IMG/VR virus record: IMGVR_UViG_3300045738_002037
Span: 92,697-156,696 of that record
Direction: 5' to 3' (one strand)
DNA length: 64,000 bases
DNA from: a virus
Each line of letters starts with the position of its first letter. Positions within the stretch are counted from its first letter, which is position 1. The notes under the pieces were generated by a model that saw nothing but the letters and a program-made list of their open reading frames with translations, had not been told where the DNA came from and ran no database searches. Below are positions 19,364 to 61,935 of the stretch, piece by piece. A program made the position numbers and the translations under genes.

Positions 19364-19416
19364 AAATATACCGTCTTTCAATAGTTTAAAATATAATGCT
19401 ACTAATAGATTTGAAT

Positions 19417-32629: not shown

Positions 32630-32999
32630 CCCTAAACAAATCGCTAAGATGATAACGGAAGACCCGGATGAGGTTAATCCGTTAGACAATATAATAGACA
32701 CATTTGAAAAAGGTCTAGGCGAGCACGACAGGGACGTTGGCTCTGATGAAATGCATGCTTTCGGTGAAATTATAACAGATCATCTTAATTATAATCATCA
32801 TTCTCCAGCAGACTTCAGAGATTTTGAATTTATGACAATACGCGGAGGCCCAGATGACGCAATGTGGAGTGTCGGCAATCAAAATTTTAGCTATGGCCAC
32901 CCCGAGGAAACATTTGCAGAATTTATGGGAGTTGTTTATTACGACGATGACCGCATATGGAAATATGAATGGCATGATCGATCCCAAACAAATCGCTAG
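32619..32999 (+). CDS. Leader-module family protein, tandem copy 1, 126 aa
   Basis: I chose the ATG at 32619 because it places the conserved leader IDPKQIAKMITEDPDE at the N-terminus, as in the other copies. Then comes NPLDNIIDTF and an acidic body with DEMHAFGEII, YNHHSPADF, GGPDDAMWSV and YYDDDRIWKYEW. The neighbour starting at 32974 has nearly the same body, so the two arose by tandem duplication. No cysteine pairs occur here, unlike in most relatives. If ITE is cleaved by a prohead protease the mature protein would start at DPDE. Function is otherwise unknown. Confidence 0.75.
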   Translation: MKIDPKQIAKMITEDPDEVNPLDNIIDTFEKGLGEHDRDVGSDEMHAFGEIITDHLNYNHHSPADFRDFEFMTIRGGPDDAMWSVGNQNFSYGHPEETFAEFMGVVYYDDDRIWKYEWHDRSQTNR

Positions 33000-33345
33000 A
33001 ATGATAACGGAAGATCCGGATGAGATCAATCCGTTAGATGATATAGAAGATACGTACTTTCCCTCCCAAGATAATCCAGACGAACATGCCCCGATGAATG
33101 TTGCCTTTGATGAAATGCACGCCTTTGGTGAAATTATAGCAGATTATCTTAATTATAACCATCATTCTCCAGCAGACTTCACAGATTTTGAAGATATGAC
33201 AATACACGGAGGCCCAGATGACGCAATGTGGAGTGTTGATAATCAAAATTTTAGCTATGGCCACCCCGTGTATCAAGAATTTATGGGAGCTGTTTATTAC
33301 GACGATGACCGCATATGGAAATATGAATGGCAAGACCACGCATGA
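32974..33345 (+). CDS. Leader-module family protein, tandem copy 2, 123 aa
   Basis: It starts at an ATG 26 bases inside the previous gene and carries IDPKQIARMITEDPDE, then NPLDDIEDTYFPS. The body repeats copy 1 almost residue for residue (DEMHAFGEIIADYLNYNHH; GGPDDAMWSVDNQNFSYGHP), differing mainly by an inserted acidic linker (QDNPDEHAPMN) and a shortened tail. The high similarity at DNA level points to recent duplication. Its TGA overlaps the ATG of the next family member (ATGA). Confidence 0.75.
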   Translation: MIDPKQIARMITEDPDEINPLDDIEDTYFPSQDNPDEHAPMNVAFDEMHAFGEIIADYLNYNHHSPADFTDFEDMTIHGGPDDAMWSVDNQNFSYGHPVYQEFMGAVYYDDDRIWKYEWQDHA

Positions 33346-33701
33346 AAATTGATCCCAAACAAATAGCCAAGATGATAACGGAAGATCCGAATGAGATCAA
33401 TCCGTTAGATGATATAGAAGATATGTACTTTCCCTCCCAGCAAGGAATTCGTTTCGTGCTTTGTCCCGAATGCGGTAGGGAAATCACAGACGAAGACGAC
33501 ATGGCATATTGTGATGCTGGCCATTTTCCGGACCCTGTCACAGGCACATATTGCCATAATAAAATTTGCAAAATTTCCTGTTTAGATGTTCACAAGACAG
33601 GAATGTCGCCATCTGGGTGGTTTACAGATGTTGACATGGGTGAATGGTACTGCCCCGATCATGCTGCAGAAGCTCAACAAGAAAGATTCGACCGGGGTTA
33701 A
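33342..33701 (+). CDS. Leader-module family protein with cysteine-rich body, 119 aa
   Basis: The leader is IDPKQIAKMITEDPNE then NPLDDIEDMYFPSQQ, matching copy 2 closely up to the point where the body changes. The body is a zinc-binding type: CPECGREI, YCDAGHF, YCHNKICKISCLDVH and YCPDH give at least eight Cys/His positions, like a treble-clef or RING/PHD-like fold. The same leader on two unrelated bodies in adjacent genes is the clearest evidence that the leader is an independent module. It ends 20 bases from the convergent helicase gene. Confidence 0.75.
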   Translation: MKIDPKQIAKMITEDPNEINPLDDIEDMYFPSQQGIRFVLCPECGREITDEDDMAYCDAGHFPDPVTGTYCHNKICKISCLDVHKTGMSPSGWFTDVDMGEWYCPDHAAEAQQERFDRG

Positions 33702-33720
33702 TCAAACTTTACGTCGGCTC

Positions 33721-35478
33721 TTAACCTTCGTCTATTAAGGCTTCTTTAAACCAATCCGGAAGCATCTTATCGGCATCTCGCAAAAATTTGTATATCGCCT
33801 CGTCAATAATATAAGTCTTCGCCCAATCGTCAACACTTCTGACGCTACGGCCATATGATTGCACAAGCTTTAAAGCCGTCAACCATACGTAATATTTTCT
33901 ATCAACTTCAACCCTAGCAGCAAGTTGCTTATCATCAAAGCAATTAGCATATGGAATTTTACAAATAATCTGAAATCTACTTAAATCATCATATAAATCC
34001 ACACCTTCATGCATGGCTGGCGCTATAATAACACCATTGTGACTTTTAGCATGCTCTTCTAACATATACTTCTTGTTGTTATAGTAATCACGCTGAAAGA
34101 AAAATCGATTTCTAATATACGGATCGCATTTTTCCTTCAACAAGTTCGCTATTGCAAAATTGTGAGTGTGAACTATGCCGCGCTCCTCACTGTGTTCTGC
34201 CATTATGTCATTTACTGCGGCTACTAATTTGTCTCCCCATTCGCTATGCATCTTCTTTACACCACCAACCATTCTCGCAGCGGGCCTAATAAAAATCGGC
34301 CTATTTTCAACAGGAAATCTGTTCTTCATCCGGTAAGCAGCTATTTCATCCCTGTTCAATCCTAAAGACTTACACATCACACCGACATCAAGAACAGTAG
34401 CGCTCATCATGAGTATTCTATCAGCATACTTAAACAACAAACTATCAGCATAATTCTGAATGAAAATCGGTTTTAATGTTACTGACTTATGAGAAGGTTG
34501 GCCATATTCGCCGCCGGTTTCCTTATATTCCACTATCCAGTTGCTACCCGACTCTTCAACGTGATCTACAAACATTTGAAACTTATGGTGAAGCCTCTTA
34601 ATTTCATCTTCAAGAGCAGTATCTTCTGATTCACGAGCTTGCATGATAATCTGATTTAAGACATTTGGAATATCACAATCAGCATACCATTCGGCATACT
34701 TATAGGCATTATCATACTCTGGAATTTCAACACCATGTTTTTGCAATTGAACGTCGTTCAATGTTACTGACACAAAATCCAATAATTGCGGTTCTACATT
34801 ATGACATTCATCAATAATCAGCATGCCTCTTGGCTCATCAAACCTTTTCGTCATTTGAGTTTGATATAAAAAGCTTGAAAAATTCATAACCACATTGTGA
34901 TTATTAATAGCTTGATAAACCTGTTCATAATAAGGGCATGCGCTATATTGAGACCCAGCAGGTAATACTTCCAAATATCCCGCTACTGGCCCGCTTGGAG
35001 TAAAACAATCAAGACATTTATAACCTTGTTTCCGTTTTCTACAAAATCCGGCATCACAACTTGATCTTTCAGATAGTGCTTTAGATAATGACTTCTTAGT
35101 CATCAATTTTCTATCAATAAGCTTATCGCCCATTCTCTCATAAAACGTGCATGGATAAGCATTGCGGCCTTTTAATTCGGTAACATCGTCAAAGTCGCTA
35201 GCCAACTGATCTTGCAATATTTTAGTGATGGTTAAATAGTAAGCGTTTCTGGAAAGATTGGCCATCGCCATCCCTATAGGCGACTTGCCGCTGCCAGTCG
35301 GGCATTCTAAAATAACTAATTTTTTACCATCTAAAAATGCCTTTACCGCAAACTCTATAACTTCTTTTTGTCCATCCCGATAGTTTTCTTTTGGGAAACA
35401 ATCATCAATATGCGAAAGCGGGTCGTCGGCGTATCGATGATCCCAAAATTTCTGTCGAATTTCTGTCTTCACAAGCAT
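33721..35478 (-). CDS. XPD/DinG-like superfamily 2 DNA helicase, 585 aa
   Basis: AAGGATA precedes the ATG. Motif I is CPTGSGKS (59-66) and motif II is the DEAH variant DECH (223-226). Between them Cys110, Cys141, Cys146, Cys155, Cys158 and Cys181 give the four ligands expected for the iron-sulfur cluster of XPD/DinG/FANCJ helicases, with extras. C-terminal motifs include MMSATVLDVG, APAMHEGVDLYDD and QSYGRSVRS. The family unwinds DNA 5' to 3' in repair and recombination. Length is normal for DinG-like proteins. It sits between gp46 and gp47, suggesting a role in recombination or replication. Residues 19-28 (DPLSHIDDCF) faintly resemble the NPLDNIEDTF module. Confidence 0.85.
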   Translation of the reverse strand: MLVKTEIRQKFWDHRYADDPLSHIDDCFPKENYRDGQKEVIEFAVKAFLDGKKLVILECPTGSGKSPIGMAMANLSRNAYYLTITKILQDQLASDFDDVTELKGRNAYPCTFYERMGDKLIDRKLMTKKSLSKALSERSSCDAGFCRKRKQGYKCLDCFTPSGPVAGYLEVLPAGSQYSACPYYEQVYQAINNHNVVMNFSSFLYQTQMTKRFDEPRGMLIIDECHNVEPQLLDFVSVTLNDVQLQKHGVEIPEYDNAYKYAEWYADCDIPNVLNQIIMQARESEDTALEDEIKRLHHKFQMFVDHVEESGSNWIVEYKETGGEYGQPSHKSVTLKPIFIQNYADSLLFKYADRILMMSATVLDVGVMCKSLGLNRDEIAAYRMKNRFPVENRPIFIRPAARMVGGVKKMHSEWGDKLVAAVNDIMAEHSEERGIVHTHNFAIANLLKEKCDPYIRNRFFFQRDYYNNKKYMLEEHAKSHNGVIIAPAMHEGVDLYDDLSRFQIICKIPYANCFDDKQLAARVEVDRKYYVWLTALKLVQSYGRSVRSVDDWAKTYIIDEAIYKFLRDADKMLPDWFKEALIDEG

Positions 35479-35501
35479 TATCCTTATATTAAATAGTTCT
35501 C

Positions 35502-35518
35502 AAATACTAGTAGTATTT
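35502..35518. promoter_or_regulatory. 17-bp palindrome in the helicase/gp47 divergent region
   Basis: AAATACTA and TAGTATTT (8-base arms around one G) form a perfect inverted repeat within the 60-base gap between divergent start codons. Its position is that of an operator able to affect both genes. Half of it matches the TTTAGTATTT element seen elsewhere in this window. Confidence 0.4.
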
Positions 35519-35538
35519 AAAAGAATTAAGGAGACAAT

Positions 35539-36633
35539 ATGTCAAATAAAATCATAATCGCGGCTGACACGCACTTCGGTGTACAAGGAAGACTTGACGA
35601 TATTTTATGGTCAGTCAGAGTAATAAGGGAATATTGCCGCCTGGCAGACATTAATACGGTGATAATAGCTGGCGATTTATTCCACGACAGAAAATCAATT
35701 GATATTGAAGTAATGAGTAAAACTTGTGATTTCTTCGAAGAAACACAAGAAAAATTTAACCAACAGTGGATTGCGTTCCCAGGCAACCACGATATGTTCT
35801 TGCGCCATTCGTGGGACATCAACAGCCTGCGCGCAATGAGCAAGCATATGACAATCATAGAAGATGTCAAAATACTAAAAATAAATGACACAAGATTTTG
35901 GATATTGCCTTTCATCACATATGAAAAATCTTATATGCGGGTATTGGATAAAATTAATGAACAATACCAAGAAGGAGATATCCTCCTTACCCATATTGGC
36001 GTAAAAGGAGCCGTATTAAACTCATGCTTTTTACTTAAAGATTGGTCAACGGTATCGTTCGAAGACAGTCCGTTTCATCGAGTTTATACTGGACATTTTC
36101 ACTGTCAACAACAAGTTGGAGAAAATGTATGGTACCCCGGCTCACTAATACCATTTAAATTCGATGAAGGAAACATTTCCCACGGTTTTTATGTTTATGA
36201 TCTAGACGAAGATTCTCATAAATTTATTAATATATGGAAAGCTGGAGCGAAATTCTTCCCAGACGAACCAGCACCACCACAATTTTTAACAATCACTGAT
36301 GACAGCATTGAGAAGATAACAAGTGAAGACGTATCTGGTAATCTTGTTAGAATAGCTCTATCACGCGATTACGCCCATAGCGACAAACAAGAATTTAAAG
36401 ATTATATAATGAACTTAGGAGCTAAAGCCGTCAGGTGGATGCAACTAAAAGAAAAACAAATTGACATAAAACCACAAGAAACAGCACTTAATAATAAAGA
36501 CCTTTTCGTAACGTATATCGAATCCGACGATAAAGGCACTAAGGAATTAAATTTAAAAATTCTAAAAAAATTAAATGAAGACGTTATGAAAGAAGGCGAT
36601 GAAAAATACGCCGTAGACAGCCAGAATTATTAA
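35539..36633 (+). CDS. 47: Mre11/SbcD-like nuclease, T4 gp47 homolog
   Basis: The five phosphoesterase motifs are in order: ADTHFG (9-14), GDLFHDR (45-51), GNHDMF (82-87), a THIG near 153 and GHFHC near 184. This is the Mre11-type metallophosphatase domain that forms the nuclease of the gp46/gp47 complex. It processes double-strand ends for recombination-dependent replication. The 364-aa length agrees with T4 gp47 (about 340). AAGGAG is 8 bases before the ATG. It is divergent from the helicase and separated from gp46 by 3.4 kb. Confidence 0.93.
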   Translation: MSNKIIIAADTHFGVQGRLDDILWSVRVIREYCRLADINTVIIAGDLFHDRKSIDIEVMSKTCDFFEETQEKFNQQWIAFPGNHDMFLRHSWDINSLRAMSKHMTIIEDVKILKINDTRFWILPFITYEKSYMRVLDKINEQYQEGDILLTHIGVKGAVLNSCFLLKDWSTVSFEDSPFHRVYTGHFHCQQQVGENVWYPGSLIPFKFDEGNISHGFYVYDLDEDSHKFINIWKAGAKFFPDEPAPPQFLTITDDSIEKITSEDVSGNLVRIALSRDYAHSDKQEFKDYIMNLGAKAVRWMQLKEKQIDIKPQETALNNKDLFVTYIESDDKGTKELNLKILKKLNEDVMKEGDEKYAVDSQNY

Positions 36634-36684
36634 CCAAGTTACTGAAAATAATTTCTAACGTGGCAAGCGATTCCCTCGCGAATA

Positions 36685-37245
36685 TTATGGGAGAGGCGTA
36701 TCTGGATATCTTTGAAAAAGCCAGAAAATAACAGCATTCACAATATTTTGCGAATCATATAAAAACAATTTTTTCATGGGACCCTGCCAGCAGTTGCCTG
36801 GTTCATCCCATCGACCGGGCTTCGACCAAAGAAACCCACTTCCCCCACTTCTTGCCACCGAAACAACACCGTGATTACGACGGTTTAAAATGAATTTTCC
36901 GTAAAATTCTCTCCATGGATAGCCAGATTTTAATTGTCCTTCGACACCACCTTTGTCAAGATGTCCATAAATTGCTTCTCCTCGAATTAAGCATTTTATG
37001 TCTGGAATTCCAAATGTATCTTCTATATTATCTAACGGATTATCTAAAACAGAAATTTCTTCTTCTTCACGTTCAATTTCAACATTTCTAACAAATATGA
37101 TCCGACGTTTTAATGGACGAGGGTCATTTGGATAGTTCGGGGAAATATAGTTACCATGTACTTTTGGGCTGCCCATAACGGAAATTATGTCATTGAACAG
37201 GGGATGCTGAAAGCTTCCCTCATTTAGTATTCGCGAAAGTTTCAT
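36685..37245 (-). CDS. MKLSRILNE-leader protein with NPLDNIED module, 186 aa
   Basis: The N-terminus is MKLSRILNEGS, encoded by the same 26 bases as the next gene upstream (37867-37892). Around residue 70 NPLDNIEDTFG appears without the DPKQ leader, so the two modules can travel separately. The remaining body (YPWREFYGKFILNRRNHG, VSVARSGGSGFLWSKPGRW) is aromatic and basic, of no known family. The LNE of the leader fits the [I/L]-x-E prohead-protease consensus. The start overlaps the stop of the upstream gene (ATGA). Confidence 0.7.
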   Translation of the reverse strand: MKLSRILNEGSFQHPLFNDIISVMGSPKVHGNYISPNYPNDPRPLKRRIIFVRNVEIEREEEEISVLDNPLDNIEDTFGIPDIKCLIRGEAIYGHLDKGGVEGQLKSGYPWREFYGKFILNRRNHGVVSVARSGGSGFLWSKPGRWDEPGNCWQGPMKKLFLYDSQNIVNAVIFWLFQRYPDTPLP

Positions 37246-37892
37246 TTATATTTTTCATAATGTCTATTAAAGACCGGGAACACAATTATATCTATTATAT
37301 TGCCAATCGCATTGGTTGACACGCTCGGCGAATAACCAGCTTCAATTTGCACATCTTTCTCGTCTGCACCAATCCTTGGTTCGGGAGTAAGATGTGCTTC
37401 AAACTCTCCGTAAAACGGTTGGTACGCACCCGACTGGAAACGACGTTGCCGGAGGTCCTTTTTGGGGAGCGCATCGATGTTTCGCCGCTGGGGTAATAAA
37501 TCCGTTGGAATAGGAACTGTAGTAGAAAATTGTCCATAAATCTTACAGGGAATTATTTCTATATCACCCTCAAATTCATCGGCATCTTCAAGATCCGCAT
37601 ATTCACCGTTTAGTGGGTTTTCGGATGTTTGAGGGTCAAATGATATAGAATGATCGGCAGGCAAAGCACTAAGATCGGGCAAAGCACTAAGATCGGGCAA
37701 AATAACAATATCCTTGATTTTTATGTCATACCCAACAGCAAACATCCAGTGGTCAACCACATTAATAGGCCCAGGTATATCAAATTTATAAGCAGCCCAA
37801 TGATCATAATCTGGATATGGCGTGGTTTTGAATTGTACACGTTCCCATTCTTTGCGAGCCGTTTCTTCATTTAGTATTCGCGAAAGTTTCAT
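37242..37892 (-). CDS. MKLSRILNE-leader protein with LEDADEF module, 216 aa
   Basis: It begins MKLSRILNEETARKEW, with the leader identical at DNA level to the following gene. It has an internal duplication LPDLSALPDLSALP, encoded by an 18-base tandem repeat. It then carries NPLNGEYADLEDADEFEGD, the second module type of the family. The C-terminal half (YGQFSTTVPIPTDLL, GAYQPFYGEFEAHLTPEPR) may share the YGxF...FYGxF pattern with its neighbour, which suggests related bodies. The function is unknown. It is the gene closest to the noncoding region at 37.9-38.6 kb. Confidence 0.7.
   Translation of the reverse strand: MKLSRILNEETARKEWERVQFKTTPYPDYDHWAAYKFDIPGPINVVDHWMFAVGYDIKIKDIVILPDLSALPDLSALPADHSISFDPQTSENPLNGEYADLEDADEFEGDIEIIPCKIYGQFSTTVPIPTDLLPQRRNIDALPKKDLRQRRFQSGAYQPFYGEFEAHLTPEPRIGADEKDVQIEAGYSPSVSTNAIGNIIDIIVFPVFNRHYEKYK
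37663..37698 (-). repeat. 18-bp tandem repeat within the 216-aa leader protein
   Basis: AAAGCACTAAGATCGGGC occurs twice in direct succession (37663-37680, 37681-37698), giving the duplicated LPDLSA peptide. Slipped-strand duplication is the simplest explanation. Confidence 0.8.
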
Positions 37893-37928
37893 ATTCTATT
37901 TTTGATACTCCAATAAGTATTTAATTAA

Positions 37929-38580
37929 TGACGGTTCCCAACAACCGTTAACAGAGAAAGTTTCTGTTACATAGCGGAACAATTATCCGCTGAGTTTTCA
38001 TTATGTTTGGGATGATCGAATCGGTTTTTAGAGTGTTCTTTCCAGTTCGATCAAGCAATCACAGGAAGTGGTTAGTAAAAAGCAACACTTGGACGCGCAC
38101 ATGCTGATAAAGATTATCAGTGTCCGAATTTTCCCAAACCTCTAATGAGCTGTTCAATAATTTTGTTGGGACTGATCGATATAATGACGACAGAAGTTTG
38201 ACAACGCCTGAATACTAAAAGATTGCACGGAAGCTTGATTCGGTCCCTCTCTTGACCATCTCTAAAACATTTGCCAATATCTTGAATTTGCCAATCTTAT
38301 TTCTGTCGGTGGGTATCGACAATCACTTAGTAATTATTGACGGCAAATCGACACTTCCGAGACACCAAAGGATTGATAGAGTGTACGGCTCCGTTGGCGC
38401 GGAGTGATAACGGCGGAAGTACGGCGTAAGGTTCGACCAACAACTAAGCTCTCCCCCCTAACTGGCTAATGTTGGTGCTCCCTTGCGATCCATCTTGGCA
38501 TCAGTGTGATACCGAAATCATATTAGTCGCAAGATCGTTTTTCGTTTTTAAAGTTTTTTACTAACGGGAACGGGGGGAGC
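37929..38580 (+). ncRNA. Candidate large structured RNA, about 650 nt
   Basis: The 704-base stretch 37893-38596 has no plausible gene but many complementary segments. On the plus strand the helices are: 37931-37936/37943-37948; 37951-37957/37961-37967; 37973-37978/37986-37991; long-range 38005-38012/38132-38139 enclosing 38013-38020/38046-38053 and 38104-38110/38114-38120; 38168-38174/38241-38247; 38304-38310/38315-38321; 38353-38359/38414-38420 enclosing 38389-38393/38400-38404; and 38451-38458/38572-38579 enclosing 38482-38488/38527-38533 and a 38495-38515 hairpin. About ten G.U pairs extend these helices only if the plus strand is the RNA; one C-A mismatch favours the other strand. The flanking genes are on the minus strand. 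Size and many-stem design recall the ornate phage RNAs GOLLD and ROOL, but I cannot assign a family. Promoter and ends are not defined. Confidence 0.65.
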
Positions 38581-38596
38581 CAAAATATATTAACTA

Positions 38597-39028
38597 TCAA
38601 TTTCCATGAGTTATGCGTATATCCAACGGGGGTTCACCGGGGATCCATCCGTCATCGGTATACCAAGCGTGACCGGCCATGCCTTTGACCACAATGGCCC
38701 ATTCATTTTCATTATTAATTTCTATTTCATAAGTGTCGTCGATCCCCCAATGTTCGTTTTTAGGATCATCTATTGTTGTTATATAATCCAGCGACTCACC
38801 GTCGTCTATATATAATGTTCCAAGCTTGCCATGGCCCGCCGCAGTATATCCAGCTTCAACATTGTAATAATTGAGTGTGCCTGCGAGGTCGGCTTCCACC
38901 GTGTCGGCAAAGACGTTTTTCTCGAACTCATCGGCATCTTCAAGATCCTCATACTCATCGTCTAACGGATTAACTTCATCCGGATCTTCCGTTATCATCT
39001 TAGCTATTTGTTTAGGGTCAACATTCAT
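38597..39028 (-). CDS. Leader-module family protein, 143 aa
   Basis: The ATG at 39028 gives MNVDPKQIAKMITEDPDE directly, then NPLDDEYEDLEDADEFEK. The body is acidic with beta-like strands (TLNYYNVEAGYTAAGHGKLG, YEIEINNENEWAIVVKGMAG) and no cysteines, ending in PPLDIRITHGN. It is preceded by three related genes on the same strand at spacings of 4-13 bases. Probable packaged or accessory protein; the cargo function is unknown. Confidence 0.75.
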   Translation of the reverse strand: MNVDPKQIAKMITEDPDEVNPLDDEYEDLEDADEFEKNVFADTVEADLAGTLNYYNVEAGYTAAGHGKLGTLYIDDGESLDYITTIDDPKNEHWGIDDTYEIEINNENEWAIVVKGMAGHAWYTDDGWIPGEPPLDIRITHGN

Positions 39029-39041
39029 GCAATATAACTGT

Positions 39042-39362
39042 TTAATAATCCCAAGATCCTGTCCCACATGTCGGACACTCGATCATTCTTGTCAAATCCG
39101 TTTGCATAGCATCTTCTGGGTCAGACCAATTAAATGATTCATATCCTTCTACGTCGAATCGATCACTTTTATCCACACATTTATCACACCAAGGAGAATC
39201 GCATCTACAATAAAACATTTCCCCTGACCAATAGCTTTTAGCACAACCACTACAAAAATCATGTCCTTCCGGAACAAATGTATCTTCTATATTATCTAGC
39301 GGATTGATCTCATCCGGATCTTCCGAAATCATTCTGGCTATTTTTTTGGGGTCAATTTTCAT
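39042..39362 (-). CDS. Leader-module family protein with zinc-finger-like body, 106 aa
   Basis: From ATG 39362 the leader is MKIDPKKIARMISEDPDE then NPLDNIEDTFVPEG. The body has FCSGCAKSYW, FYCRCDSPWCDKCVD and IECPTCG: four Cys pairs arranged like a RING or rubredoxin-like zinc fold. ISE keeps the [I/L]-x-E signature despite the T-to-S change. A longer reading upstream to 39455 would overlap the neighbouring gene and lacks support. Confidence 0.75.
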   Translation of the reverse strand: MKIDPKKIARMISEDPDEINPLDNIEDTFVPEGHDFCSGCAKSYWSGEMFYCRCDSPWCDKCVDKSDRFDVEGYESFNWSDPEDAMQTDLTRMIECPTCGTGSWDY

Positions 39363-39369
39363 TTGTTTG

Positions 39370-39600
39370 CTAACTGCAATTCGGGCACTGTCTTGGAAAT
39401 TTATAAAAAAACTCTGGCGCAGCACTTCCACACTCATCGCACCAACTAGACCCACATCTCTGACAATGGTTCACGAAGTCCCGATGATATCCACAACCGA
39501 CACACTCTTCGCCATATATATCTATTATATTGTCTAACGGATTAACCTCATCCGGATCTTCCGTTATCATTCTAGCGATTTGTCTGGGATCAACAGTCAT
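39370..39600 (-). CDS. Leader-module family protein with zinc-finger-like body, 76 aa
   Basis: This is the shortest full member. MTVDPRQIARMITEDPDE is followed by NPLDNIIDIYGEE and then CVGCGYH, HCQRCGSSWCDECG and a terminal CPNCS. The cysteine spacing mirrors the preceding protein, so the bodies are paralogous though shortened. I chose the ATG at 39600 to agree with the leader. It is separated by 4 bases from the fused family member upstream. Confidence 0.75.
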   Translation of the reverse strand: MTVDPRQIARMITEDPDEVNPLDNIIDIYGEECVGCGYHRDFVNHCQRCGSSWCDECGSAAPEFFYKFPRQCPNCS

Positions 39601-39604
39601 ACGG

Positions 39605-41263
39605 CTAGTCCGATTCATAAGGAGTGGGACGACGAATTCGATCAAGATCCTCTGGTTCCCAAAAATCTGGTCTATTTACCCAACTGTGGCTGCGCCTTGA
39701 AGCTGTTCTGGATGGCAGTCCCTTCGCCTTAGCACAATTTGGGCATTCGGTATGAACACCGTTTCCGTAATGATCATCAAAACTCAATCTCGTTTGCACC
39801 ACAGCATCCTTCGCGCAGTCACCGCACCACATTGTGTCGCAAAATTCGCAATATTGCCCAACACCCGATTCGCGAGTTAACCCTCCTTCAAACACCGGCG
39901 TCCCACATTTATTACATGGCCGACTGTCGCCGTAATGATCATCAAATTCATCGGCATCTTCAAGATCCGCATACTCATCATCTAACGGATTAACCTCATC
40001 CGGATCTTCCGTTATCATCTTAGCAATTTTATTGGGGTCGACGGCCATTTCATTATATTCTTCAGCACGCCACCTCGCCAAAGCTATTCTCTCCTGAGCG
40101 TACCCTCCCAGGTCCTGCACAGCATCCCATGCCTGACATTCATCGCAATCGCATGGACCCCATACGGGATGTTCCCCGTGGGGTCGATCAATTATATATT
40201 CATCTTCTATATTGTCTAACGGATTGACCTCATCCGGATCTTCCGATAGTAAAGACCCAGCTTTTCGATTTAGACTTTCTGTGTAGTTTTCACATTCCCA
40301 TTTTCCTTTATTGTCAAAGTGCCCACACATCTGAGGAATACACAAAACTGCTTCGACAAATTTTTCACCTACTTCTGGGCCATCCCATTTCCAACCAGTT
40401 CGAACTGCTGTCGCCAGCCAGCCATGACCGCGTTCATAAAATATGTGCAAGTTGCCGCTGAAAGATTTAAAATCTAAGCTTGGCCAACCCATGCGCTCCT
40501 CGCCCCATTCTTTGTTATGGAGTGTAGAACCGGGAGGACCTGCACACTCAACAACAATATGTAGGACGATCTCGCCTGCCCCACCTACCATTATTATCTC
40601 TTGGGGAACATCTCCTACATATTGGTGCCCAGGGAGACGATCTTCTGGAATTTCCCAAAAGTCGACTTGTACCCATCGACCATCACGGAAGATAGAAGAA
40701 TCTGAATCGGGTTTGACCTGAATAATGTACAACGTATTCAAGCAATTATCATAATCATTTTCTTCAAATTCATCGGCATCTTCAAGATTCGCATACTCAT
40801 CTGAGGACTCTAGTTGGGTGGGCCGTGGCGGAATATCTCCAGGTTGCCAGCTTTTATCACCCCTCGTTGGCAGATTGGGACAGCGTGGACAGGTAAGAAT
40901 GCGTTTACACCAATAGTGCCCGCGATTGGATAATGTTTGACGCCTGTCGTGGTATATTCTAAATGGAGGCTCTGTTGTCAAGCTAGGGTATCCCGGTCCT
41001 CCTATATCTTCTGGTGTTGACATACAATTTTCGCAATATGTGCTGCCACAATTCTCACACCGTAAGTTCAAATCTGTATACAGTAACGTCTCTCCGCGCC
41101 ACGCCACAGTGTACCACTCTTCACAATTCGAACACTGTGTTTTGTCTTTGTCATATTCAAATTCATCGGCATCTTCAAGATCCGAATATTCATCGTCCAA
41201 CGGATTGATCTCATCCGGATCTTCCGTTATCATCTTGGCAATTTTATTGGGGTCAACAGTCAT
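39605..41263 (-). CDS. Fused leader-module family protein with three modules, 552 aa
   Basis: This frame holds several family members in one chain. It opens with MTVDPNKIAKMITEDPDE, NPLDDEYSDLEDADEF and a Cys-rich region (CSNCEEW, CENCGSTYCENC, CPRCP). A second LEDADEF module near residue 175 leads into a beta-rich region with no cysteine pairs. LLSEDPDEVNPLDNIEDEY near 340 comes next. A complete internal leader, MAVDPNKIAKMITEDPDE, near 405 is followed by another LEDADEF module and zinc-finger body (CNKCGT, CEFCDTMWCGDC, CPNCAK). The internal copies still begin with Met, so loss of stop codons between former tandem genes is likely. Two internal [I/L]-x-E sites would let a prohead protease cut it into units (inference). 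Confidence 0.75.
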   Translation of the reverse strand: MTVDPNKIAKMITEDPDEINPLDDEYSDLEDADEFEYDKDKTQCSNCEEWYTVAWRGETLLYTDLNLRCENCGSTYCENCMSTPEDIGGPGYPSLTTEPPFRIYHDRRQTLSNRGHYWCKRILTCPRCPNLPTRGDKSWQPGDIPPRPTQLESSDEYANLEDADEFEENDYDNCLNTLYIIQVKPDSDSSIFRDGRWVQVDFWEIPEDRLPGHQYVGDVPQEIIMVGGAGEIVLHIVVECAGPPGSTLHNKEWGEERMGWPSLDFKSFSGNLHIFYERGHGWLATAVRTGWKWDGPEVGEKFVEAVLCIPQMCGHFDNKGKWECENYTESLNRKAGSLLSEDPDEVNPLDNIEDEYIIDRPHGEHPVWGPCDCDECQAWDAVQDLGGYAQERIALARWRAEEYNEMAVDPNKIAKMITEDPDEVNPLDDEYADLEDADEFDDHYGDSRPCNKCGTPVFEGGLTRESGVGQYCEFCDTMWCGDCAKDAVVQTRLSFDDHYGNGVHTECPNCAKAKGLPSRTASRRSHSWVNRPDFWEPEDLDRIRRPTPYESD

Positions 41264-41356: not shown

Positions 41357-43459
41357 ATGGCTGATGAAATCAAAATACAAGGTCTTACGTCATTAAATTG
41401 TGATCTGGCTAAAAGACTACCAATAAATCCCGAAAACGGGGATGAAATATGCGATAGTTATGGCAATAGATATAGATTTAATGGCAAGACTAACACGTGG
41501 ATTTTTATTGGCGCTGTGCTTGTTCCGCCAACAGTTACAGAATCCATCGACGGTGTTATTACTCCAAAAATATTTGAAAAATTAAGGCATGTTGAAAATA
41601 TTCTGGCAAACGGCGTTGATTTTTCACAATTTAAAATATTTCCGGGTATAGAAGGTTATTGGTATTATTTTCGCAGCAGCGATAAATTAATAAAATTCGA
41701 TGTGGAAGGTGAGGATCAATTACGAATTGAAATTGATTCTGGAAGATTTCATCAGATAATAGCTAAAAGAAGTTGTAAAGGCCAATTTGGCGATAAAGGA
41801 ACGACCGGCGAAGATGGAGATCCGGGAGACAGTTCTCCATTAGAAAAATTTTATATTCCGTCTAATATAGATGAAGACAAGATTGATTTCGCGATCTTTA
41901 CCCCAAGCCCATTAGACACTCCAATATCACTCAGGTTAATAAAATGCGAAGACTCTAGCATTACCAACAATTGCGGTAGTGGCGAACTAATTAAAATTGT
42001 TAATGATGAATATCAAGCATTGCCAAAGAGTCAGACTGAATATTTTACAGAATTAATAAGAGATTTTAAATCTAGCGTTGACAATCGCACCATAGACCAA
42101 TTAGATAATCTTAAAAGATTCATTGCTGACAAATCATTGGGGTCATTTGCCGACGTAGATTTAAATATACCTTTAAGTAAAATAAGGTATATGGCAGAAG
42201 ATGATCCACGTTGCCGTGTTTCGACTACCGCAGAAGAACCAGATATAATAATATTAATAGATCCTAAAAACAATGTGCCGCCCACAGTAACAATAAAAGA
42301 AGAAGAATTTGAAATAGATGAAGAAAGAACATTTGCGGCATTAAAATATGACAAAGATATTGGCGTTCTAAGTGGAACGGTTTATTTAAAGAGGAAAACT
42401 TGGGTAGAACTCGGCAAATGGTGCATAAAATCCAAGCAAAAAGGTCCCGTAGGATCGGACGGCATAGACGGCCTTTGCACGCTTGAAATAATTAAAGACA
42501 CCATAGACCCTACAAGTATCTTCACTTTATGTCCTATTGTAAATGTTAGATATGATAATGATAAAGATATAATTTATACATTATGCAGTGACATTGGAAC
42601 TGCTACTTGCGCAGAATATATAATATTGGTGGCTGACTCAGCTGATACTACCAACGAAAATGCTATCAAAAGCAGATTTGCGGCTGTGATTCGTTCTCTT
42701 GATGAATGTAAAGATGTTACTGAATATAGAATATCATTTGAAGACGACGATATTCCAGCATTAACGTTTTCACATTGGGACCCACAACCCGGCTGCCAGA
42801 CTTCAAGACATTATGACAGGCATAAATTTGATTGGTTTGTTGACACAGAAAGCAGAATAAAAGAAGGGCAAGAAAAACCACAATGGTATAGCCCAACTGA
42901 ATGTTTAACGATTGACTATCCGCATAAGATCATCGCTGCGTCAAAACCAGAAGAACAATGCTGCACTGAAGAATTTTTTTATTGCCCAAATATTCAAGAA
43001 GCACCTGCCGAATGTGGAGAAGACGGCGAATTCACTATTGAAGTCAATACAACACCTCCGCCGACCACCACCACCACCACAACTACAACTGGCGCACCTT
43101 CGGGAGGGCAATTAGACATAGTAGCTTTTTGTCTTGCCAACGATGCAGCCTGCGCGCCCTATCCTTCGTGTACACCTGGTTCGATTATAGCAGATTGGGG
43201 TACGGCTGTTCCTGGGCAAAAGTGTTATGATGGTTTCATTTGGAACGTCACAAAAGATGAAGCTCATCGCAATCTTTTGGGCAATCTCCCCCCCGGCGGT
43301 TATAACCAAATTTTCTACGGGTCTTCCGCTATTACTGACAATGATGAATATCAAGTTAGAATGCGGTTTTATGATGGTTTATTGACACTGAGCAGTCCGC
43401 GCTCTTGCACTGGAAACCTGATTACCTACGGAGAAAGCAATATATTTTCATGTGAGTAG
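41357..43459 (+). CDS. Virion structural protein with collagen-like segments and poly-Thr linker, 700 aa
   Basis: The protein begins MADEIKIQGLTSLNCDLAKR. Collagen-like Gly-x-y runs occur near residue 145 (GQFGDKGTTGEDGDPGD) and near 360 (KGPVGSDGIDG). These short triple-helix segments are typical of phage fibre and tail proteins. Near residue 565 a poly-Thr run of nine follows TTPPP, and then a Cys-rich C-terminal domain of about 120 residues (SCTPG, KCYDGF, SCTGN). This linker type also separates domains in the giant virion protein, so the two probably belong to the same structure. No enzymatic motif was found. The ribosome-binding site is weak. Confidence 0.65.
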   Translation: MADEIKIQGLTSLNCDLAKRLPINPENGDEICDSYGNRYRFNGKTNTWIFIGAVLVPPTVTESIDGVITPKIFEKLRHVENILANGVDFSQFKIFPGIEGYWYYFRSSDKLIKFDVEGEDQLRIEIDSGRFHQIIAKRSCKGQFGDKGTTGEDGDPGDSSPLEKFYIPSNIDEDKIDFAIFTPSPLDTPISLRLIKCEDSSITNNCGSGELIKIVNDEYQALPKSQTEYFTELIRDFKSSVDNRTIDQLDNLKRFIADKSLGSFADVDLNIPLSKIRYMAEDDPRCRVSTTAEEPDIIILIDPKNNVPPTVTIKEEEFEIDEERTFAALKYDKDIGVLSGTVYLKRKTWVELGKWCIKSKQKGPVGSDGIDGLCTLEIIKDTIDPTSIFTLCPIVNVRYDNDKDIIYTLCSDIGTATCAEYIILVADSADTTNENAIKSRFAAVIRSLDECKDVTEYRISFEDDDIPALTFSHWDPQPGCQTSRHYDRHKFDWFVDTESRIKEGQEKPQWYSPTECLTIDYPHKIIAASKPEEQCCTEEFFYCPNIQEAPAECGEDGEFTIEVNTTPPPTTTTTTTTTGAPSGGQLDIVAFCLANDAACAPYPSCTPGSIIADWGTAVPGQKCYDGFIWNVTKDEAHRNLLGNLPPGGYNQIFYGSSAITDNDEYQVRMRFYDGLLTLSSPRSCTGNLITYGESNIFSCE
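43056..43096 (+). repeat. Poly-threonine coding tract (ACC/ACA/ACT)n
   Basis: About nine successive Thr codons follow a Pro-rich stretch and join two domains of the virion protein. Similar tracts occur near 4030-4060, 5885-5915 and 10610-10640 in the giant gene and near 45634-45666 in the actin-like gene. Confidence 0.7.
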
Positions 43460-44951: not shown

Positions 44952-45315
44952 GATTATGGCTATTAGTTTATTGGTGACGAGTATAATTGGGCTGGTAGTT
45001 TTAACAACTCATTGTGTTATCATAACAATTAATTTAAACAAAGTTTTAAAATTACTAAAGAAATGTAATAATAAAAAACGAATAAATAAAATAATAAATT
45101 TATTGGAAGAATGTGATGAACGAGGACAATTTACATCGCCACGACAAAAAACAAAATATTCAGGGGCAACTGCGTCATCAAGTGAAAAACAATTCGTCAA
45201 GACTAAAGAAGTTGATGAATTACCGCCAGAAGTCATCGCGCCAAGCCTCAAAAATCCCCCAAGACCAACTGGAGGCTTCGGGTCTAGAGTGGATAAAGAT
45301 AAACGTGATTCATAA
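44944..45315 (+). CDS. Small membrane protein, 123 aa
   Basis: One hydrophobic segment (ISLLVTSIIGLVVLTTHCVII, residues about 7-27) is followed by a highly basic stretch (LKLLKKCNNKKRINKII). A long polar tail rich in Ser, Pro and charged residues comes next. This is a type of N-terminally anchored membrane protein. The 3' part overlaps, in another frame, the possible upstream extension of the actin-like gene. No functional family was recognised. Confidence 0.6.
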   Translation: MSEIMAISLLVTSIIGLVVLTTHCVIITINLNKVLKLLKKCNNKKRINKIINLLEECDERGQFTSPRQKTKYSGATASSSEKQFVKTKEVDELPPEVIAPSLKNPPRPTGGFGSRVDKDKRDS

Positions 45316-46903
45316 TTTTAGTAAAAAAACCATAGTTGATGAGGAAGAGCTAAAATTAATAAATCCGGGCACAGGCAGCACTGGAAGAACAGCCCATAAA
45401 CCTGTTACTACAAAAAGAGCAAACAATTTAGAAATTCCGACAAAACCGGCGACTTCTATACCGCATAAAGATCATATAGTAAAACCTATAACCGCCAAAA
45501 ATATAATAATTACTTCTAAGACGTCTAAAAATACGTCAGAGACAGTTGAAAAACATAAAACTGACAAAACAGAATTAATTATTCCAACGCCGATTAAAGC
45601 GATTGAATTAGAAGCACTTGAATCTGTAATAATTACTACTACTTCTACTACAACCACAAAACCAACAACATATAACGAATTTAAAAAAGTAGAAAATTTA
45701 GAAATCAGAGAAGTTTCTGACAATGCAAAAAGAATTGCAGTTAGAAATGCAAGTGACAACTATGATTGTAAAGTATATAAACTAGGTGACGTTTTTACAG
45801 GTAGGAGAGTATTGATGACTAACATTGGCATAGACGTCGGCACTATGAACATCGTCATAGCTTATAAAAACAGCGAAGGCGAGGTTGATTATCTATCCGA
45901 AGTAAATGGGTATTGGATATTCGAAAGAGCCACGCCATTTATTGAAAATATGTTAAACGACGCAAATAAAGTTCGGTCAGACGGGACTGAGCGGTCTGCT
46001 AAATGGATCAAAATGCCGGAAACCAATCAAATATGCGTTCTTGGCAAAGATGCTGAAGAATTCGCATATGCTAAAAATGACACTCTTTTAAGACCTATGG
46101 CCGAAGGTGGGATCGCAGCTGAAGAAGAAGCCATGACAGTATTGGCCAGCATTGTCCAAGGTCTTCTTGAAATGGCCGAAAATGAAGTTGGTAAATTTGA
46201 TAAAGAAGTAAAAATTGTTTATTGCACAACTGCTCCGGCTATTAATAAAGAATCTAACATTGATTACCATAAACGAGTAGTTGATATTATTATCAGCGGA
46301 TATGAAACTACGTCTAATATTGACATGAATACTATTAAAGAATCGCATGCCATCGTGGTTAATGATAGTCCTGATGGAACCGGCATCGGAATTTCATGGG
46401 GCGCAGGCACCGTAACTGTTAGTTATGTAAAATATGGCATTGAAATTTATTCTTTTAGCTGGGTCGGAGCTGGAGATTGGATTGACACTCAAGTCGCAAT
46501 GCGCCATGGTTATAATCCTGAAGCTTTAAAAACTAGGAAAAAGACAGCTAAAGAAACCCCAACCACAGTTGCAAAAAGAAAACTGCAAATTGATCTTAGC
46601 CCAAATATTGAAGCTAAAGACCGAATCGAAATGGATATTAAATTGCATTATGATGTGTTGATCAACCAAGTTATTGACGGTATTGTGCAAGGTTTTACAG
46701 AGCATGAATCAGAAGCTCGCATTGATGAAGCTATCAACATTTACATGGCTGGCGGAACATCGTCTCCGAATGGATTCGAACAACGTGTGGCAATATTATT
46801 CGAAGAAAGAGATCCACCGTTTGAAATAGCAGAAGTTAATAAATCAGCTAAACCTTTATATGCAGTAGCTGAAGGATGTTTAAAAGCAGCAGAAATGTTC
46901 TAA
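45305..46903 (+). CDS. Actin-like ATPase (ParM/MreB/Hsp70 fold), with low-complexity N-terminal extension
   Basis: The ATPase core has NIGIDVGTMNIVIAY (phosphate 1), a SWGAGTVTVSYV block (phosphate 2), SFSWVGAGDWID and a C-terminal IYMAGGTSSPNGF (adenosine loop), the signature of the actin superfamily. Phage members form filaments that position or segregate DNA. The core starts at ATG 45815, with AGGAG 8 bases upstream. The same frame stays open for 500 bases before that, encoding a Lys/Thr/Pro-rich segment with a poly-Thr run (TTTSTTTTKPTTY). I therefore place the outer boundary at a GTG at 45305. Both products may be made. If only the internal start is used, the protein is 362 residues, normal for actin-like phage proteins. 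Confidence 0.7.
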   Translation: MIHNFSKKTIVDEEELKLINPGTGSTGRTAHKPVTTKRANNLEIPTKPATSIPHKDHIVKPITAKNIIITSKTSKNTSETVEKHKTDKTELIIPTPIKAIELEALESVIITTTSTTTTKPTTYNEFKKVENLEIREVSDNAKRIAVRNASDNYDCKVYKLGDVFTGRRVLMTNIGIDVGTMNIVIAYKNSEGEVDYLSEVNGYWIFERATPFIENMLNDANKVRSDGTERSAKWIKMPETNQICVLGKDAEEFAYAKNDTLLRPMAEGGIAAEEEAMTVLASIVQGLLEMAENEVGKFDKEVKIVYCTTAPAINKESNIDYHKRVVDIIISGYETTSNIDMNTIKESHAIVVNDSPDGTGIGISWGAGTVTVSYVKYGIEIYSFSWVGAGDWIDTQVAMRHGYNPEALKTRKKTAKETPTTVAKRKLQIDLSPNIEAKDRIEMDIKLHYDVLINQVIDGIVQGFTEHESEARIDEAINIYMAGGTSSPNGFEQRVAILFEERDPPFEIAEVNKSAKPLYAVAEGCLKAAEMF

Positions 46904-47340: not shown

Positions 47341-48099
47341 ATGAAGTGTAGAGCATGTGGGCATGGCAAACTCAAAATTTTTCATGCTCAAGTGGAGAAA
47401 AATTCCCGCCCAGATCGGGAGACCAATTCATGGGATTGGCACAAATGCCAAAATTGTGGGTCTGACACGTCTACTGAACCTGACCCAGATGCCACCAAAA
47501 TATATGACGCAAATTATCCTAAAATTCGTTTAACTACGTTGGCCCAAACGTCGGATTTATTAAATACTCCTTTAGAAAACATTCGATCCGCAGTTGAATG
47601 GTCAATAACCGAATATACTACTAATGTTGATTATATAAATTCTGTTAGAGATTCTTTGCCAGACAATACAGTATTAGAAATTGGCAGTTGTGAAGGATCT
47701 GGAATAATAGCATTTGAACGCCAAGATTATGAAGCACATGGCTGGGATTTAATGCCCCCCAACATATGTGATAAATCTAAAGTTACAATTGGAAAATGTT
47801 TTTCAGCTGACCAAATGGGGAAACAATTTTCCATTGTGATATTGCGAGAAGTTATTGAACATGTGGCAGATTGGGAATCATTGTTAAAAGAAATACACGC
47901 TGTTTTATTGCCCGAAGGAGTATTGCAGGTCCAAACTCCTTTGCCATGTTCTAGACGTGACGCAACTCCATATCAACAAGATCATATTATAATATTTTCG
48001 GCCAATGAATTGCAAAGGCAACTGATCAAGCATAAATTTATCATACTTTCTTCCCTTTATTGGGAATGTGGCCAAATGGTAATGGTCAAAAAAATTTAG
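47341..48099 (+). CDS. SAM-dependent methyltransferase with N-terminal zinc ribbon, 252 aa
   Basis: MKCRACGHG and KCQNCGSD form an N-terminal zinc-binding part. The Rossmann core shows VLEIGSCEGSGIIAFE (SAM-binding motif I), AHGWDLMP, VILREVIEHVADWESLL (motif of class I methyltransferases) and LLPEGVLQVQTPLP. The arrangement is that of sugar or small-molecule methyltransferases in O-antigen clusters. The N-terminal ribbon resembles that of C-methyltransferases, but the chemistry is unproven. It ends in convergent overlap with the dioxygenase fusion gene. Confidence 0.75.
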   Translation: MKCRACGHGKLKIFHAQVEKNSRPDRETNSWDWHKCQNCGSDTSTEPDPDATKIYDANYPKIRLTTLAQTSDLLNTPLENIRSAVEWSITEYTTNVDYINSVRDSLPDNTVLEIGSCEGSGIIAFERQDYEAHGWDLMPPNICDKSKVTIGKCFSADQMGKQFSIVILREVIEHVADWESLLKEIHAVLLPEGVLQVQTPLPCSRRDATPYQQDHIIIFSANELQRQLIKHKFIILSSLYWECGQMVMVKKI

Positions 48100-50426
48100 C
48101 CGTCTGACCGCGTTGGCAATAATTTGGGGTTAGCAATTGGAAAATACCACCCTTTTTGCTTATATTGTTTGGCATCCGGCATATCACCACGATGATTAAC
48201 GCCCGAATAATGTAATATAACTGCCTCACGCCATAGATCAGCATTTTTAGGCTCTGATCCTCGATGTAACAATCGCGCATGCCAAAATAGAACGTCTCCT
48301 TTTTTAGGCACGAATTTTTCTATATTTAATTCAGCTTTATCGATAAGACCATTTAAAAGTGGAGTTAAAAGCTCTTCTGATTTTTTAGGCCAAGCGGCGT
48401 CGTTTTTATCTAACTCAAATTCTGTTATTATTTTGTTTTGCTCAATAGGCGGCAATATATGAGATCCTCTAATAAATTCAAATGGTCCGGAATCTTCGTG
48501 TATATCGTTTAAAGCAATCCAAACAGCAACATACCAATCTTTAACATGGCTCGGATTTAAATAACTATCTTGATGCCAATTGCGTTCCGTTGATTTCCAG
48601 CCGGTGAGAGCCAAATGCACTCCCATTGGCTCTCCTATTAAACTTTTCAGCATGTTTTGAATTGGGTCGCAAGTTGCTAATTCTAAAAGAGAAGGAATCT
48701 GCATGTAGGGGCATGGGCTTTGATAACCATCGGGATTATCGCTATTTTGCCTATTGTCGCGGACCCATTCTTTTTTATAATTGTCTATAACACCATTTGG
48801 CAATAAATTACTTTTTACAATTAAACCGTTATCTTTCCAATATTTCTGGTCATCGGTCAATGTGTCATTTACATTTGTTTTATCGAGCCAAGGCAATTCT
48901 GGGTCAGTAATATTTCCTAGTATATTTTGCAGTGGTTTTAATAATTCTTGTTTGTCATCCAAAAGGCATTTGATTTTTTGCGTTTCTGGTTCGATCGCTA
49001 TTTTAATTGGGCTATGGCCGTATAATTCGCCTATCGCAAAATATATTTCTTTTTCTTCAAACATAGCAGTGGTTGTTGCGATGCGCGGGAATTTTTCTTT
49101 CCAATGCTCGTAAAATTTTTTGCTTTGCTCAACGTAATGTTTATATCCGCCATCTTTAAGATTATCACTCCCATTAGAGCAATGTTTAAATGATAGTTTA
49201 GCCACATAGTTCTTTAATTTTTTACTTTTTGCTGTTAAACATATATCAGCGCCATAAAAATGAAAATGATCTAAATATTCGCCAAATTTTAATTCATTGT
49301 CTCTGTCTGCAATCATCAAAAATTCATCTAGTGTTTGAACCTCCATTAAATTAAAGGGATATTTTCCTATTGAAAAGTCTGCGCCAGTTCTTTTGTTTTT
49401 ACAATCTTTTAGCCAATAAAAATCAAAAACAATGGGCTTCATGCCCGCTATTCCAATTAACCCGAATTTTTTAATCGGCGAAATATTTTGCTCAAATTCC
49501 AATAAAAAATCGCTGGATTCAGATACTACGTCTTGATGTGAATAAAAAATATACTTCCCTGTTGTAGCGTCTGTTAATTTATTTAAAGATTCTGAAGATG
49601 GCATATTAAAAACATTATTATTTAAATATACAAAATTAAACCTTTTTTTTGATTTAAGAGTATATTGCAATTTTTGCAGTCTATCAAGCTTGGTTGCACA
49701 TACAACATATGAATAATTAAAAGGGCCATTGGGCGAAATTAATTTTGGTTTTATATGTAAGTCTAAATTGCTTATGTCTTTTATGGATTTTGATATTGTG
49801 TTATTCTTTTCCACATTTTTACGATATAAAAATTTGTTACGTGCATATAACAAAGATCTATTGCGTATGCATAAGTTCGTATAGCCCAATTTATTGATTT
49901 TTAGGCCAAATTCAAAATCAATTTTGTTAATCTTATCTGCTAATTTTTTGCGAATTAATAAACACGATACGGTTATTTCATCGATTTTAGTATTTTGAGC
50001 ATTATTAATTTGTTTATTATCATACCAAATTAAACGGTGGCTTACGCACCCGATGTTAGATATACAAGCATATTTTGTCATTTCCGTTATAGCATCATAA
50101 GTAAACAAAACATTGTCATCTAAGAATAATATAAAATCTCCATCGCAATTGCCGCGTTCATACTTTTCATAAACATGAATTTTTTTAATGAATTCTTTAT
50201 TGGTTTTATCTGCTAATTCTGTTAAATCGCCGCCATGCGATTTTGCGATAACATGCACATTATAATTGGGATATTTAACATGGTTAAATATGCTTTCTAA
50301 ACAATTGTTAAGAAATCCATCTTTGTCTTTTGATATTATGCAAACATTAATTTTCACATTGCCGTTAAGTGTCATTACGTCCCAATCGACAAAAGGATAT
50401 TTGGGCCGTTTTTTAATCAAAAACAT
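48096..50426 (-). CDS. Two glycosyltransferase-fold domains fused to a phytanoyl-CoA-dioxygenase-like domain, 776 aa
   Basis: AGGATTAAATAC precedes the ATG at 50426. Residues about 25-240 form a GT-A domain (INVCIISKDKDGFLNNCLES; FILFLDDNVLF with a DD pair). Residues about 250-480 form a second GT-A or StrF-like domain (YSYVVCATKLDRLQKLQ; YIFYSHQDVV; YGADICLTAK). Residues 520-770 form a PhyH-type iron and 2-oxoglutarate dioxygenase with WHQDSYL (HxD, near 618), a distal His in ARLLHRGSEP (near 717) and the following Arg. It probably transfers and then oxidises sugar residues. Fusion of two transferases with an oxygenase is unusual. The function in the island is inferred from the domains. Confidence 0.75.
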   Translation of the reverse strand: MFLIKKRPKYPFVDWDVMTLNGNVKINVCIISKDKDGFLNNCLESIFNHVKYPNYNVHVIAKSHGGDLTELADKTNKEFIKKIHVYEKYERGNCDGDFILFLDDNVLFTYDAITEMTKYACISNIGCVSHRLIWYDNKQINNAQNTKIDEITVSCLLIRKKLADKINKIDFEFGLKINKLGYTNLCIRNRSLLYARNKFLYRKNVEKNNTISKSIKDISNLDLHIKPKLISPNGPFNYSYVVCATKLDRLQKLQYTLKSKKRFNFVYLNNNVFNMPSSESLNKLTDATTGKYIFYSHQDVVSESSDFLLEFEQNISPIKKFGLIGIAGMKPIVFDFYWLKDCKNKRTGADFSIGKYPFNLMEVQTLDEFLMIADRDNELKFGEYLDHFHFYGADICLTAKSKKLKNYVAKLSFKHCSNGSDNLKDGGYKHYVEQSKKFYEHWKEKFPRIATTTAMFEEKEIYFAIGELYGHSPIKIAIEPETQKIKCLLDDKQELLKPLQNILGNITDPELPWLDKTNVNDTLTDDQKYWKDNGLIVKSNLLPNGVIDNYKKEWVRDNRQNSDNPDGYQSPCPYMQIPSLLELATCDPIQNMLKSLIGEPMGVHLALTGWKSTERNWHQDSYLNPSHVKDWYVAVWIALNDIHEDSGPFEFIRGSHILPPIEQNKIITEFELDKNDAAWPKKSEELLTPLLNGLIDKAELNIEKFVPKKGDVLFWHARLLHRGSEPKNADLWREAVILHYSGVNHRGDMPDAKQYKQKGWYFPIANPKLLPTRSDG

Positions 50427-50450
50427 GTATTTAATCCTAAAAGACTAAAC

Positions 50451-51146
50451 ATGAACAATATAATCATTAGATATGTTACGCCAGAAGCGATAATATTTGA
50501 ATTAGAAAAACCCCATGATATTTACTTGCTATGCGAAATCAATGGAGTTTTTAAAATTTACGATGATAAATTAAATAAAATAATTACCCCAAATGCAAAC
50601 GAATGGGTTAAATCTCATTCTAACAGCTCATTAGAATTACTTTTAAATTTAGCAAGAACATTTCGAGATGGAATGCAGTGTTCTTATAATGGTGGCGATA
50701 TTTTAGAATATCTAGTGTTATTTAGCATATTAATTAAAAACTCTATATTCCATAGCGAATTGGCAAGTAAATATGCAAGCGTTTATTTTATAGAAATATG
50801 CGACCCAGATGATGTGCCAGAAGTAATTGATGGAATCAGAAATAATTGGGATGAATTGCTAGATAAATTTGGCGAAAAAGAACTGTTAAACAATCTTCAT
50901 AGATGGGTACGATTTTGCAATTATAACTGCCCGGACAATACTATAATTTTTGAAAAATTCGTGAATAGATTGGGCGAAGGTGTTTCGCCGCCGTCTTATC
51001 CAAACACAGCTGAACACGATGAAAAATTGGCAAGTGATGTTTTAAAAAGTGTTGGCAAAGATTTAAAAGAATATAAAAATGTTCCCAATGAAATACTAGA
51101 ATTAGCGCATGAATTTAAAGCCAAAAGATTACAAAGGACCACTTGA
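50451..51146 (+). CDS. Hypothetical protein, 231 aa
   Basis: It starts 24 bases from the divergent dioxygenase-fusion gene. The protein is mostly helical and acidic (CDPDDVPEVIDGIRNNWDELLDKFGE; LNNLHRWVRFCNYNCPD), with two Cys near residue 160. No domain was recognised. It overlaps the DnaE-like gene by 38 bases in another frame, so both are probably on the same transcript and it may belong to the replication machinery. Confidence 0.65.
   Translation: MNNIIIRYVTPEAIIFELEKPHDIYLLCEINGVFKIYDDKLNKIITPNANEWVKSHSNSSLELLLNLARTFRDGMQCSYNGGDILEYLVLFSILIKNSIFHSELASKYASVYFIEICDPDDVPEVIDGIRNNWDELLDKFGEKELLNNLHRWVRFCNYNCPDNTIIFEKFVNRLGEGVSPPSYPNTAEHDEKLASDVLKSVGKDLKEYKNVPNEILELAHEFKAKRLQRTT

Positions 51147-61861: not shown

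Positions 61862-61935
<74 letters not shown>

Follow-up and report, generated by a model that had tools for sequence, protein, structure and literature searches.

Few RNAs as large and complex as the one described here are known in bacteria or phages, and those of phages have no proven function. GOLLD forms a 14-mer cage and often contains or adjoins tRNA genes, and ROOL forms an octameric cage. The solved example of ROOL is 659 nt long and has several pseudoknots, a variable linker and loop-to-loop contacts; in both ROOL and GOLLD the covarying loop contacts proved to be intermolecular, between copies, and pull-downs have reportedly recovered GOLLD bound to ribosomes (PMC12286853). A large ornate RNA can also be a monomer, as the raiA motif is; protein binding is known for OLE and HEARO (PMC12286853). 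Phages ICP1 (an RNA of about 800 nt) and K (lnc001 and lnc002) make abundant large RNAs that are unclassified (PMC7567579, PMC9241854). Another such class, in a phage lineage unrelated to theirs, would mean that large phages have evolved giant ornate RNAs repeatedly.

Genome context

The window analyzed here is the final 64 kb of a phage record of 156,696 bases, and all coordinates are those of the window unless stated otherwise. An earlier note, made from the letters of the DNA, had pointed to a 704-base gap in otherwise packed coding sequence, and the gap is real: ORFs stop at 37892 and restart at 38597, the flanking ORFs (37242–37892 and 38597–39067) are both on the minus strand, and the ORF list contains none of at least 60 aa between them (37893–38596). 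The ends proposed in that note for a structured RNA, 37929 and 38580, agree with the ends derived here. The RNA had also been called antisense, which holds for its orientation, opposite to that of the flanking genes, but not for any overlap, since it sits between genes and overlaps none. The principal features are as follows.

35539–36633, plus strand: sbcD-like gene (phrog_100, 1e-42; syntenic, usually directly 5′ of the RNA and on the same strand)
37917–37923, plus strand: promoter-like motif GTATTTA, with a putative transcription start at about 37930 (position before P1, intergenic enrichment)
37930–38579, plus strand: large structured non-coding RNA of about 650 nt (homologs, covariation in the core and the 5′ domain, promoter-like motif, no conserved ORF)
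37930–37949, plus strand: hairpin P1, with loop CCCAAC (37937–37942) as one side of contact KL1 (stem exchanged in relatives; loop pairing tested)
37969–37991, plus strand: hairpin P2, a conserved ACAUAG, then a 5-bp stem and a 7-nt loop (fixed-geometry rule, covariation)
38014–38052, plus strand: helix P3, 38014–38020 with 38046–38052 (covariation; window strands set by eye)
38032–38089, plus strand: pseudoknot PKb, AGUGUU 38032–38037 with AACACU 38084–38089 (covariation)
38057–38073, plus strand: hairpin P4, AAUCAC aggaa GUGGUU (double changes in five of six pairs; 75% of cells paired)
38165–38170, plus strand: GUUGGG, the KL1 partner of the P1 loop (loop/site complementarity above all 20,000 between-sequence permutations)
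38183–38302, boundaries approximate, plus strand: variable linker (18 to 203 nt in homologs)
38343–38480, plus strand: conserved 3′ core domain, 30 bp in six helices (cmsearch 119 bits; 23 of 30 pairs with double changes in 14 sequences)
38451–38458 with 38572–38579, plus strand: 3′ terminal pseudoknot PK3, CUCCCCCC with GGGGGGAG (compensated in relatives)
41357–43459, plus strand: conserved 600-aa gene, which most relatives have on the same strand 3′ of the RNA (synteny; no Pfam match)

Homologs and distribution

Relatives were collected from IMG/VR by alignment of the nearby helicase (33721–35478) with distant phage helicases. An nhmmer search with the gap matched six of them (E-values 5e-15 to 5e-5), all at the same position and in the same orientation relative to the helicase. 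Profile and covariance models, together with one final pattern, added L014, L017–L019, L104, L107, L224 (the same record as L109), L016 and L264, the last being a near copy of L018 that came from the final pattern. At least 16 IMG/VR records, of about 13 distinct lineages, carry the RNA in a syntenic place, and its length ranges from 467 to 794 nt, a spread mostly due to the linker. Four matches were absent from the set used to build the core model R1, and therefore provide independent confirmation: L104 (120 bits), L107 (110), L224 (74) and L016 (52), with E-values of 2e-22 to 1e-7 in the searches that discovered them.

All of the placed carriers fall into one clade of the helicase tree (16 rows, support 95/89), within which L105 (a fragment) and L020 gave no match to the RNA. 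The phage has a T4 gp23-type capsid protein, nearest to that of an uncultured 595-kb phage record (39%), in which model R3 found no such RNA; nor did R1 and R3 find one in about 60 further related-phage records and four named phages, with carriers recovered as a control in one run. The core pattern gave 30 matches in cellular genomes, the best of 17 bits, which is chance level. No match was obtained by blastn of the gap against phage records, no kin with the protein encoded at 37242–37892 as bait, and no relatives with a single-protein helicase bait. A first DNA pattern for the core was rejected after returning seven already-known carriers and four chance matches in coding sequence from IMG/VR, a stricter one matched nothing there, and the automatically built model R2, whose structure is poorer, was left unused.

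Comparison with known RNA families

The window and the related loci were searched against the 4,227 families of Rfam at gathering and relaxed thresholds, and none matched. In the window gap the only hits were MtlS at 20.6 bits (cut-off 80) and CrcZ at 9.2 (cut-off 95), both at chance level, and the related loci likewise gave only chance matches; no other family of Rfam 15, OLE, HEARO, introns, tmRNA and RNase P included, yielded a covariance-model match. The models for GOLLD (RF02032, gathering cut-off 150 bits, for the conserved 3′ region) and ROOL (RF03087, 99.1 bits) matched none of eight carrier records at E-values up to 10. The known ROOL on pMP118, the one positive control, scored 130 bits with the same library. 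Conversely, R1 found no match in the known ROOL of L. salivarius, and its scores stayed at noise level (12 bits or less) in the stretches of ICP1 and phage K where the abundant large RNAs are encoded. The earlier note had left open whether the RNA was a GOLLD, a ROOL or something new; with GOLLD, ROOL, HEARO and OLE all checked and no family matched, it falls into a separate class of comparable general size and style. A literature search, in which preprints and subscription papers were partly covered, found no publication describing it.

The likenesses are considerable. As with ROOL, this is a phage RNA of similar size with pseudoknots (PKb and PK3), a variable linker of 18–203 nt and a loop contact; as with GOLLD, it is large, has a conserved 3′ and a variable 5′ region and a linker, and has a loop contact of the kind that was first detected in GOLLD by covariation. 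The variation of the linker and of total length is also like that reported for both. It resembles the ICP1 and phage K RNAs in being large, intergenic, phage-made and without an ORF. There are also differences: many GOLLD RNAs exceed 800 nt, compared with 467–794 nt here, and whereas ROOL is often near tRNA islands, the present RNA is not, and no tRNA lies inside or beside it, the sole tRNA of the window (61862–61935) being 23 kb away. A highly diverged GOLLD or ROOL, beyond the reach of the Rfam models, would account for the size, the phage home, the GOLLD-like division into a conserved 3′ and a less conserved 5′ domain, the linker, the loop contacts and the pseudoknots; we regard this as very improbable, as neither model matches the eight carriers even at E-values up to 10, the relaxed cmscan is empty and R1 is silent on a real ROOL. 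The resemblance to ROOL in pseudoknots and linker is a matter of common style, not descent. Almost certainly, this is a real structured RNA that acts in trans and belongs to a class absent from Rfam.

Secondary structure and covariation

The fold of the RNA comprises several domains and is conserved within one clade; it has covarying helices, two pseudoknots, the contact KL1 and a variable linker. In the 14-sequence alignment of the core, which was fitted to R1 and is biased toward the structure, 94.6% of cells are paired, compared with 31–42% in controls with slid partners, and 23 of the 30 base pairs have changed on both sides with pairing kept. The covariation score is 0.560, against 0.222 for shuffled alignments (none of 500 as high) and 0.06–0.11 (maximum 0.109) with partners slid by one to three columns, a control that preserves the relatedness among the sequences. 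An unfitted MAFFT alignment of 10 sequences shows double changes in 20 of the 30 pairs. Compensatory changes among the homologs thus exceed both the shuffled and the slid controls.

Pseudoknot PK3 pairs the extreme 3′ end of the RNA with the loop of the last core hairpin, and corresponds exactly to one of two long-range closures noted earlier (38451/38572). It covaries in relatives, with compensated pairs in L104 (CUCCACC/GGUGGAG), L107 (CCCCAC/GUGGGG), L018 (CCCCGC/GCGGGG) and L014 (CCUUCCCC/GGGGAAGG). For P1, P3, PKb and PK3 the strands were picked for complementarity; their full pairing is therefore by construction, and the information comes from comparing them with swapped partners. The other closure (38005/38132) exists in the window, between UUUGGGA and UCCCAAA, but its conservation was not found in the relatives.

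Within the 5′ domain, the P1 stem is exchanged among relatives, for example GGCGAC/GTCGCC and CGGTGG/CCACCG (strands picked by eye). A fixed rule for P2 (AUA, 5 bp and a 7-nt loop, with 6 bp in L014) gives full pairing in 13 of 13 sequences, with double-sided changes in four of its five pairs. Double changes are seen in relatives at six of nine pairs of P3. PKb crosses P3, its 5′ strand lying within that helix, and four of its six pairs are altered on both sides (in L107, for example, GGGCCGTT/AACGGCCC). Taken together, P2, P3, PKb and P4, which were drawn by eye before counting, have 87.1% of cells paired in an unfitted MAFFT alignment of 10 sequences that misaligns W and L107 in this domain; 19 of 26 pairs have changed on both sides, and the score is 0.600, against 0.292 for shuffled and at most 0.167 for slid partners.

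The long-range contact KL1

In the window the P1 loop has a complementary site about 220 nt further downstream, and the contact recurs in conserved context in 11 of 12 sequences, being absent at the expected place in L012. Its letters are fully replaced between relatives, from CCCAAC/GUUGGG in the window to UUCCAGG/CCUGGAA in L107 and UUCCAAUC/GGUUGGAA in L224, and none of 20,000 permutations of partners among sequences was as good as the sequences' own partners. The sites were first spotted by eye, and position nulls for single sequences are modest (0.01 to 0.13).

By analogy with ROOL and GOLLD, KL1 is a candidate contact between copies, the linker may be unstructured cargo or a tether, and the RNA might accumulate to a high level and function as an assembled particle. 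Homo-oligomeric assembly, which this analogy suggests, is plausible though short of probable. KL1 can equally be contained in a single molecule, and no symmetric self-complementary loop of the ROOL or GOLLD kind was identified in the present RNA. It is likewise possible, if somewhat doubtful, that the RNA is a monomer, or forms a ribonucleoprotein together with a protein of the phage or the host, with KL1 and the pseudoknots all intramolecular. One chain can satisfy every contact found, there is precedent in the monomeric raiA motif and in protein binding by OLE and HEARO (PMC12286853), and sbcD and the 600-aa protein are constant neighbors; yet no gene is strictly adjacent in every carrier, opposite-strand genes precede the 600-aa gene in the window, and no particular protein partner is pointed to. 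That the RNA is a decoy or sponge, acting in trans against host defense or host RNA metabolism by titrating an RNA-binding host factor, we consider improbable: the sequence indicates no target and the conserved positions are mostly paired internally, although GOLLD bound ribosomes in pull-downs (PMC12286853) and other large abundant phage RNAs have no assigned function.

The best explanation of the whole, which we judge to be modestly probable, is that large phages of one clade, which have a T4 gp23-type capsid protein, carry a gene of about 650 nt for a trans-acting non-coding structural RNA; it would have its own promoter, and its product may form a ROOL- or GOLLD-like particle. A bolder form of this explanation, a third class of phage RNA, of independent origin, that forms an RNA-only particle through a loop contact kept through complete sequence exchange, and that is expressed alongside recombination nuclease genes, is rather unlikely. 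With its covarying pseudoknots and testable loop contact, the RNA offers a definite target for studies by probing, cryo-EM and deletion.

Strand, putative promoter and neighboring genes

The folding energy of the plus strand beats that of 20 of 20 shuffled sequences (z of −3.1 to −3.5), and the minus strand folds equally unusually (z of −3.5). Because both strands fold well, the energy shows unusual structure and not strand, and it was rejected as strand evidence; the comparison with shuffled sequence that had been suggested for the plus strand thus succeeds there but does not discriminate between strands. The aligned helices contain 49 G-U cells against 11 A-C cells, which, with the conserved promoter-like motif 5′ of the RNA on the plus strand, bears out the earlier assignment of the RNA to that strand; homologs, compensatory base changes and the motif together support a large structured plus-strand RNA.

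All ten close members that were inspected have the motif GTATTTA (GTATTTG in L025) 6–9 nt upstream of hairpin P1, and its exact form is missing in the more distant L016 and L017/L018. There are eight intergenic sites across the whole contig, compared with 1.1 expected, and 17 in the related loci, compared with 2.6 expected, of which several are 28–38 nt before sbcC; in this phage a site is found 26 nt upstream of sbcD. Besides 37917, the motif is also intergenic at 35513, at 50427 and elsewhere. It looks like a promoter element in general use in this phage clade, where the genes that it precedes include sbcC and sbcD. A scan for sigma-70 promoters and intrinsic terminators found no more than in shuffled sequences. 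Position and motif support well a predicted plus-strand transcription from the RNA's own GTATTTA-type phage promoter, and as promoters of this type would also precede sbcD or sbcC, expression alongside replication and recombination genes is likely.

Synteny also bears on whether the RNA acts in cis, as a long leader or an attenuator, on a downstream operon comprising the 600-aa gene and a glycosyltransferase. In several relatives the next same-strand gene does begin about 50–100 nt past the RNA. In the window, however, the next gene (38597–39067) is on the minus strand, and the 600-aa gene, the next conserved plus-strand gene, starts 2.8 kb from the RNA with opposite-strand genes between, which argues that the RNA is not a leader; with its 3′ end also tied up in a pseudoknot, this role is extremely improbable.

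Other features of the window

Adjoining the gap, two neighboring ORFs at 36685–37892 both start with the peptide MKLSRILNE. Many of the small ORFs at 32854–41263, 61952–62392 and 1578–2258 have in common a short tag (DPKQIAKMITEDPDEINPLD, then IED or EYEDLEDADEFE), which occurs up to three times in the ORF at 39605–41263 and resembles a repeated peptide for targeting or processing. DNA polymerase III alpha is apparently divided between two distant opposite-strand genes, 51109–52578 and contig bases 85316–88006 (L011:5316–8006), with the PHP and N-terminal part in one and the polymerase body in the other. The ORF at 45113–46903 encodes a viral actin-like protein (Pfam Volactin, 1.4e-40), and a single ORF of 5,291 aa occupies 3506–19381. 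Two genes are unusual among phages: a glycosyltransferase fused to a PhyH dioxygenase domain (48096–50426) and a sulfatase (58594–59895). The product of 22736–23851 is related to the 2-aminoadenylosuccinate synthetase family of phages (phrog_1211) and might indicate that the genome contains modified adenine.
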